NCBI GenBank assembly: GCA_029243225.1
Contig: JAQWSL010000057.1
Location: 1-34,267 of the forward strand
DNA from: Flavobacteriales bacterium
Lineage (GTDB): Bacteria > Bacteroidota > Bacteroidia > Flavobacteriales_D > Parvicellaceae
Reading direction: 5' to 3'
Length of the DNA stretch: 34,267 nucleotides
Part shown: in pieces, positions 32,572 to 33,999 of the stretch
How the letters are laid out: the number at the start of each line of letters is the position of its first letter
How positions within the stretch are numbered: the first letter of the stretch is position 1
The notes under the pieces: model-generated
The model's input: the letters and a program-made list of their open reading frames with translations, nothing else
Databases searched by the model: none
Told to the model about the DNA's origin: nothing
Made by a program: the position numbers and the translations under genes

Positions 32572-33447
32572 ATGATTAAGCCTTTAAGAAAAAAATATGG
32601 CCTTGTAGTTCAAGGTGGCACTTTGCGTTCCATTTTCACTTCTGGAGTTTTAGATGCTTTCATAAGTGCAGGATTTAATCCTTTCAAATATGTTGTTGGT
32701 GTATCTGGAGGTGCAATGTGTATGTCATATTATTTAGCCAATCAATATAAAATAACTTATAAAATTATGCATGAACTGGCTAATGATGATAAATTTATGA
32801 ACTGGCTAAATATGTTTTCAGAAGAAGGATACATTAATTTAAATTACTTAGATGAATTTACTAAAAGAAAATTCCCATTAGATTTAAAAAAATTAACAAA
32901 GAAAATAAGAAATAAAAAAATTGAGATTGTAACAACTTCTCTTGAAGATGGAAGACCTATATATTTAAGAGCTAAAACAAACAATTGGTACAAATCATTA
33001 AAGGCAAGTGCTAGTATTCCATTTGTAACAAAAGGGGAAGTCGTAATAGAGAATCTAAAAGTAATGGATGGCGGATGGAGTGACCCTATTCCTATTAAAA
33101 GAGCAATAGAGAATAAATGCACTGACATTATTGTAATTAGAACATTGCCTAAATTTCATAGAGAAAAATGGAGCTACTTTGGTAAATTCGGTGGTTTTTG
33201 GCACAGAAGCTCACCATTGTTGAGTAAACGATTTCATCAAGATTATGTCTTTTATAATGAAATTGCTGATTTCTTAGAAATGGATCATGAAGGAATTAAC
33301 ATTTATCAAATTACCCCAGAAGATTATTTAAAGACTAGTAGCTATTCTACATCAACTAAAAATCTAAATGAAGATTATAGACTAGGAATGGAAATGGGAA
33401 TAAACTTATTAGAAATGTTAAAAGTGAAAAAGAAATTATTCAGCTAA
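32572..33447 (+). CDS. Patatin-like phospholipase
   Basis: A 291-residue protein of the bacterial YjjU-type patatin group. The Ser-Asp dyad is complete: Ser45 in GVSGG (residues 43-47) and Asp166 in the DGG motif (DGGWSDPIPI). The oxyanion-hole glycine loop is VVQGGTLRSIFTSGVLDAF (12-30), with the first Gly of the usual GGG replaced by Gln14, as in the YjjU group. No signal peptide, so it is probably cytoplasmic or membrane-associated, hydrolysing fatty acyl esters. Its last eight bases overlap the 3' end of the DUF2752 gene on the other strand. Confidence 0.88.
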   Translation: MIKPLRKKYGLVVQGGTLRSIFTSGVLDAFISAGFNPFKYVVGVSGGAMCMSYYLANQYKITYKIMHELANDDKFMNWLNMFSEEGYINLNYLDEFTKRKFPLDLKKLTKKIRNKKIEIVTTSLEDGRPIYLRAKTNNWYKSLKASASIPFVTKGEVVIENLKVMDGGWSDPIPIKRAIENKCTDIIVIRTLPKFHREKWSYFGKFGGFWHRSSPLLSKRFHQDYVFYNEIADFLEMDHEGINIYQITPEDYLKTSSYSTSTKNLNEDYRLGMEMGINLLEMLKVKKKLFS

Positions 33448-33739
33448 TTTTTTTTATAAACTTTTTAAAATCTAAAATAAAGTAAGTGGAAACAACTAGA
33501 ATTACCACAAAAATTAAAGGGTTTGAATTCCATGCTCCAATCGGATCAATTTTCAATAGACTAATGAATGCTTTAGTTAAGCCACAACCTGGGCAATGCA
33601 CATCAAAAATTAAATTCCATATACATGGGATAGTAATGTTAAAGCCAGAAACAGCATATAAGGCTGAAGAGAAAACAAAATAGGATGCTATTATAAAAAG
33701 ATATTTATTATGTACTATATATTTAAAAATCATAATCAT
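33440..33739 (-). CDS. DUF2752 membrane protein
   Basis: A 99-residue membrane protein with the DUF2752 signature HCPGCGLTKAFISLL (residues 48-62; Cys49 and Cys52) between hydrophobic helices (about 13-30, 35-47, and 72-92). Function unknown. It lies downstream of the TM2-domain gene on the same strand, a pairing seen often in Bacteroidota. The start is the ATG at 33739, with an alternative ATG at 33733; both lie directly after the U-tract of a strong hairpin, so its expression would depend on reading through that terminator. The 3' end overlaps the patatin gene by eight bases. Confidence 0.8.
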   Translation of the reverse strand: MIMIFKYIVHNKYLFIIASYFVFSSALYAVSGFNITIPCIWNLIFDVHCPGCGLTKAFISLLKIDPIGAWNSNPLIFVVILVVSTYFILDFKKFIKKIS

Positions 33740-33765
33740 AAAAAAGGGCGCTAATAGCGCCCTTT
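33740..33765 (-). terminator. Strong intrinsic terminator between TM2 and DUF2752 genes
   Basis: AAAGGGCGCT and AGCGCCCTTT (33743-33752 and 33756-33765) form a perfect 10-base stem with a three-base loop, GC-rich against an AT-rich background. On the minus strand six T follow, and the next three bases are the ATG of the DUF2752 gene. It lies 15 bases after the TM2 stop codon. Confidence 0.9.
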
Positions 33766-33780
33766 AATTTTGATAAAGAT

Positions 33781-33999
33781 TTATTCAGAAAGTGGTTGAC
33801 CGTCTGCAGTTCTATATTTACCTGTGATTATTTGAAATAAATCAATCCATGTTAATATACTACACAATCCAAAGGTTAATAATGCTAATACACCTCTTCC
33901 CGTGTGACCAGTCATAAATCTGTGTACACCTAAATTACCCAAAAAAAGACAAATTAATATCATAGTCATTTTTTTTGGAGCTGGTTTTTGTTCACTCAT
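33781..33999 (-). CDS. TM2-domain protein
   Basis: A 72-residue two-helix membrane protein of the TM2 family: the first helix MTMILICLFLGNLGVHRF (about 12-29) with the conserved Gly-x-x-GxHRF turn, then TGHTGRGVLALLTFGL and the acidic IDLFQIITGKY segment. TM2 proteins have unclear roles; many carry a domain that controls another partner, but here only the core is present. It ends with the strong terminator and is followed by DUF2752. ATG at 33999 is the natural start. Confidence 0.85.
   Translation of the reverse strand: MSEQKPAPKKMTMILICLFLGNLGVHRFMTGHTGRGVLALLTFGLCSILTWIDLFQIITGKYRTADGQPLSE

Follow-up and report, generated by a model that had tools for sequence, protein, structure and literature searches.

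On the minus strand of the window, a 34,267-nucleotide stretch of DNA from a Flavobacteriales bacterium, a small gene encoding a TM2-only membrane protein is parted from a DUF2752 gene by a hairpin with a following T-run (Table 1). Using profile searches, RNA folding and a comparison of the same junction across related genomes, we conclude that this hairpin is most probably the ordinary intrinsic terminator of a self-contained small TM2 unit and not a special DUF2752 switch. The proposed unit would comprise a DUF805b-like leader, a spacer of about 19 nt, a TM2 gene of 70–80 aa and a terminator placed 7–29 nt past the stop codon. Most transcripts begun upstream of TM2 would terminate within the T-run beside the DUF2752 start codon, and DUF2752 would be expressed at a lower level, either by leakage through a constitutive terminator or from an unrecognized promoter. 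That the T-run directly adjoins the ATG may then be explained by the shortness of intergenic gaps, with no need to invoke selection for a switch. The leakage, the RNA 3′ ends and a possible influence of the hairpin on translation are what we infer from the DNA.

Table 1. Features of the minus-strand locus in the window.
Feature	Position	Strand	Details
DUF805b-like leader element	34049-34019	minus	cmscan RF02914 21.9 bits; ends 19 nt before TM2 start codon
Small TM2-only membrane protein gene	33999-33781	minus	72 aa; PF05154 55.1 bits, E 8.5e-15
Intrinsic terminator	33765-33740	minus	10-pair hairpin 33765-33743, T-run to 33740
DUF2752 gene	33739-33440	minus	99 aa from first ATG; PF10825 54.9 bits, E 9.4e-15

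The hairpin between TM2 and DUF2752

Both protein assignments lie above the Pfam gathering scores (27.9 for PF05154, 27 for PF10825). The hairpin starts 15 nt past the TM2 stop codon, and the junction reads AAAGGGCGCT-ATT-AGCGCCCTTT, TTT and then the first ATG of DUF2752. The stem scan yields 10 pairs, 6 of them G–C, around a loop of 3; if the A–T pairs at the stem foot are omitted, a 7-pair stem followed by six T is obtained instead. The original prediction of a 10-base stem, a three-base loop and six T was thus right about the pairs and the loop but counted three T in both the stem and the run, while its statement that the structure runs straight into the DUF2752 start codon holds exactly, with base 33740 touching base 33739. 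The 66-nt stretch containing the hairpin folds at −21.5 kcal/mol (z −5.29), a value reached by 0 of 200 shuffles. As in known Rho-independent terminators, a G–C-rich stem with a short loop (within the 3–8 typical of them) is preceded by an A-run and followed by a T-run; unlike in these, the last T directly adjoins the first ATG of the next gene, a feature common to other junctions of this genome.

Two other identities of the hairpin were rejected. A repeated mobile hairpin is ruled out by its being the sole copy in the assembly when up to 2 mismatches are allowed, and a known sRNA by scores far under the cut-offs (sraA, 29.6 of 56 bits; STnc40, 28.6 of 45), matches that reflect only a generic terminator hairpin. 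The start of DUF2752 carries two in-frame ATG codons, at 33739 and 33733. By an eye count, the N-terminal length from the second equals that of the relative in genome G099, so the true spacer between hairpin and gene may be 6 nt longer. At its other end, the 3′ end of DUF2752 overlaps by 8 bases (33440–33447) the 3′ end of a patatin-like gene on the plus strand (32572–33447). The window's genome (G000) contains a further DUF2752 gene (C81:11638–11823, locus L002; 42% identity over the matched part), and no TM2 gene was found beside it in that locus.

Terminators and TM2 genes across relatives

The original prediction had asked whether hairpin and spacing are conserved at the same junction in relatives. 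In the nearest of these, the other genome of the same genus (G001, an uncultured Flavobacteriales MAG; contig CALSPA010000002.1, locus L017), stem, T-run and spacing are kept: hairpin plus T-run are identical at 25/26 positions, with a single difference located in the loop, and directly behind them stands ATGATTATGATT. The DUF2752 genes of the two genomes share 271/299 bases. G001 carries tandem TM2 genes with nearly identical leaders (L017 1947–2455), of which the first is 62% and the second, adjoining the hairpin, 67% identical in DNA to that of the window; the reading frame of the second is broken, either in reality or by sequencing error. G099 and G091, of another family, have different hairpins at this junction; between the end of the scanned hairpin and the ATG chosen lie 46 nt in G099 and 26 nt in G091, where the T-run ends 20 nt ahead of the first ATG. 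Given these distances, we rejected the idea that a strictly kept spacing marks function. A fifth genome, G094 (L045), probably also has a different hairpin at this junction: a terminator lies past its small TM2 gene, and DUF2752 may start 8 nt after the T-run, although the start codon picked led to its being scored as an overlap without terminator, and the pair counts below were left unchanged. No hairpin was found at the junction in Flavicella (L018), where TM2 and DUF2752 overlap or abut. Four genomes (G000, G001, G091 and G099) have a close relative of DUF2752 following a small TM2 gene, and in every one of them a terminator directly precedes DUF2752, which could also mean a selected leak.

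Our survey of 299 genomes found DUF2752 places in 117; the loci analyzed from these and from further searches contain 107 distinct DUF2752 ORFs. A same-strand TM2 gene lies <700 nt upstream in 27 of these 107; 16 of these pairs overlap or are at most 6 nt apart, 5 are parted by a terminator and 6 by a gap without one. The view that DUF2752 usually goes with TM2 is thus correct insofar as the two are often adjacent, but the partner is mostly a larger TM2 gene that overlaps or abuts DUF2752 with no terminator.

The size class of the TM2 gene separates these arrangements. A terminator follows within 90 nt of the stop codon in 8/11 intact small TM2-only genes (70–80 aa), or in 9/12 when the frame-broken copy of G001 is counted, against 2/27 larger TM2 genes and 79/897 other ORFs of at least 150 aa taken as background. 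The difference from the larger TM2 genes (Fisher p 1.3e-4) and from the background (p 6.8e-7) is expressed by p values that overstate independence, because the small sets are related by descent. The 27 larger genes exclude the frame-broken G001 copy (with a terminator) and include broken G013, L037 (without), and the two positives among them include one weak match (L120), 52 nt past the stop, which was kept. The 3/11 small genes lacking a terminator include the first TM2 copy of G001. What lies behind the small-TM2 terminators varies: DUF2752 in G000, G001, G091 and G099, a second TM2 gene in G285 and G197, and no same-strand gene found close behind in G023 and G046. The terminator tracks the TM2 gene type rather than DUF2752. 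The order in G285 is DUF805b RNA, small TM2, terminator, larger TM2, DUF2752, and the layout of the window would arise if the larger TM2 gene were lost from such an order.

We also asked how often terminators touch the next start codon, taking as the sample 40 stretches of the window's genome together with the window (604,336 bases, 27%). Of 140 junctions between same-strand genes spaced 25–800 nt apart, 12 contain a terminator, whereas shuffled sequence gives 0.7. Four of the 12 have a T-run that stops no more than 13 nt short of the following ATG, where random placement in the same gaps expects 3.0, with gene starts set at the first ATG, a choice that favors short distances. The corresponding counts are 4/15 in G001 (3.2 expected), 1/12 in G003, 1/8 in G091 and 2/13 in G099. 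Abutment therefore recurs in the window's genome but not in clear excess over chance, and the notion of a strict, special layout is not borne out; contact between a terminator and a start codon is no sure sign of a switch and is a usual outcome of short gaps in this genome. A terminator 2 nt from the ATG of a gene with the start MIFKIHILGCGSALP, presumably ribonuclease Z-like, is likewise kept in G000 and G001 (L180, L226).

Alternative readings of the junction

A terminator hairpin before a start codon is shared with attenuators and the expression platforms of riboswitches, and the original prediction was of an attenuator or read-through switch. Such a switch would have an RNA element, a protein or a ribosome on the TM2 mRNA gate the hairpin, turning DUF2752 on in some conditions, and it could draw on the conservation of the layout with G001 and on the DUF805b-like element at the start of the same transcript. 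However, neither hairpin arm pairs with upstream mRNA clearly better than shuffles do (181/200 and 40/200 were as good), for which reason we rejected an attenuator that works by pairing with the TM2 mRNA; the hairpin sequences differ between genera; and G099 has the terminator with no DUF805-type leader detected. The terminator stem keeps a pair probability of at least 0.81 in transcripts from the leader to inside DUF2752, and the lowest value, 0.595 in a shortened transcript ending at the hairpin, would allow for weak competition with its folding. Further unlike known platforms, the hairpin stands behind a complete gene, no alternative structure was found for it, and hairpins of this kind occur with other genes, or none, behind them. 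We therefore find the switch unsupported and very unlikely; the lack of a clear antiterminator, together with the terminator of G099 without a detected leader, favors a constitutive, leaky terminator.

Whether the leak itself is selected is a separate question. A constitutively leaky terminator could be maintained to hold DUF2752 below TM2, with the hairpin, 3–9 nt before the start codon, also lowering translation. That a terminator parts both genes in G000, G001, G091 and G099, each of the two genera having its own hairpin sequence, by contrast with the 16/27 pairs in which TM2 and DUF2752 overlap or abut, makes this a tenable if tentative proposal; on the other hand, small TM2 genes carry a terminator even where no DUF2752 follows, and the terminator thus needs no role for DUF2752. 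We regard as somewhat doubtful that DUF2752 has a promoter of its own inside TM2 or the hairpin region, with the terminator simply insulating two units. A sigma-70-like match (33855–33827 minus, 10 of 12) would suit it, but such matches number 10 in the region against 13.8 expected and are not above chance. Promoters of the Bacteroidetes type have a −7 box, TAnnTTTG, with TTG upstream. Before DUF2752 the search for a −7/−33 pair returned only single-mismatch −7 boxes, none with TTG 17–23 nt upstream, in agreement with the original prediction that no −7 promoter would be seen there. Under the preferred reading of an ordinary terminator, DUF2752 probably relies on leakage or on an unseen promoter. 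As the evidence for the terminator is good and relatives retain it, DUF2752 may plausibly depend on read-through.

A broader scheme, which we consider rather improbable, would combine the leader, the small TM2 gene and the terminator into a recurring membrane-protein cassette under RNA control, in which a DUF805-clan pseudoknot senses a signal shared with flavobacterial proteorhodopsin genes and leakage through the terminator determines how much DUF2752 is made.

The DUF805b-like leader of TM2

The upstream DUF805-clan leader is a better lead than the terminator. The unexplained RNAs of this clan are tied here to the small TM2 unit and to rhodopsin genes, which provides an orphan RNA class with testable targets. 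DUF805 RNAs have reportedly been described in an earlier paper, and the pseudoknot discussed below may be in print. A literature search on DUF805, DUF2752 and proteorhodopsin with riboswitch gave nothing on these elements among the papers listed, and the available part of PMC5069720 holds nothing on the DUF805b-like element.

The leader aligns with the whole RF02914 model (1–35/35; E 0.00024 in a 161-nt stretch) but does not reach the gathering score of 35.6, no Rfam family being found at gathering in the whole window, and we call it DUF805b-like, not a member of RF02914. Its likeness to DUF805b RNA (RF02914; DUF805, RF03081, belongs to the same Rfam clan) lies in the conserved blocks CCGAAAA and AGAGTA, in a start-codon distance matching that of the reference copies (27/30 at 15–26 nt) and in a downstream gene of the same type as in G091 and G285. 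Unlike the family, its score is low, and the 3′ arm of helix 1, of which three inner pairs were tested, is missing in all three copies of this genus. The 40 nt ahead of TM2 match the leaders of the two G001 copies at 39/40 and 40/40 positions, while the three TM2 genes are only 62–75% identical mutually.

In two other families, small TM2 genes have a true DUF805b RNA upstream, ending 19 nt before the gene in G091 (44.3 bits) and 20 nt before it in G285 (42.5 bits). In G052, a DUF805 RNA (RF03081, 64.8 bits; L041 1267–1333) lies 23 nt before a TM2–DUF2752 pair; no DUF805-clan match was found in the remaining loci scanned, apart from that of G001 itself (L003). DUF805b exceeds the cut-off in 38/150 relatives, a tally that misses diverged copies, since the window's own leader is not among the matches of the whole-genome RF02914 search.

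An alignment of 33 leader copies (A2; 30 DUF805b and the three of this genus) points to a second helix, in which N-C-C before GAAAA pairs with G-G-N′ in the 3′ block (the GG of GTAGG). Across 32 distinct sequences the N–N′ pair is GC in 12, UA in 12, AU in 2, UG in 1 and unpaired in 5, and the covariation score for the structure with both helices is 0.466, compared with 0.139 for shuffled sequences and no more than 0.066 for slid versions. This covarying helix would make DUF805b a small pseudoknot. The window's leader keeps N–N′ (as G–C), and an A in its 3′ block breaks one C–G pair, one of the three pseudoknot-type pairs.

Among the 30 DUF805b copies with loci, 9 have bacteriorhodopsin-like, proteorhodopsin-type genes behind them (L051–L054, L057–L059, L076 and L079), with the RNA about 18–25 nt before the gene.
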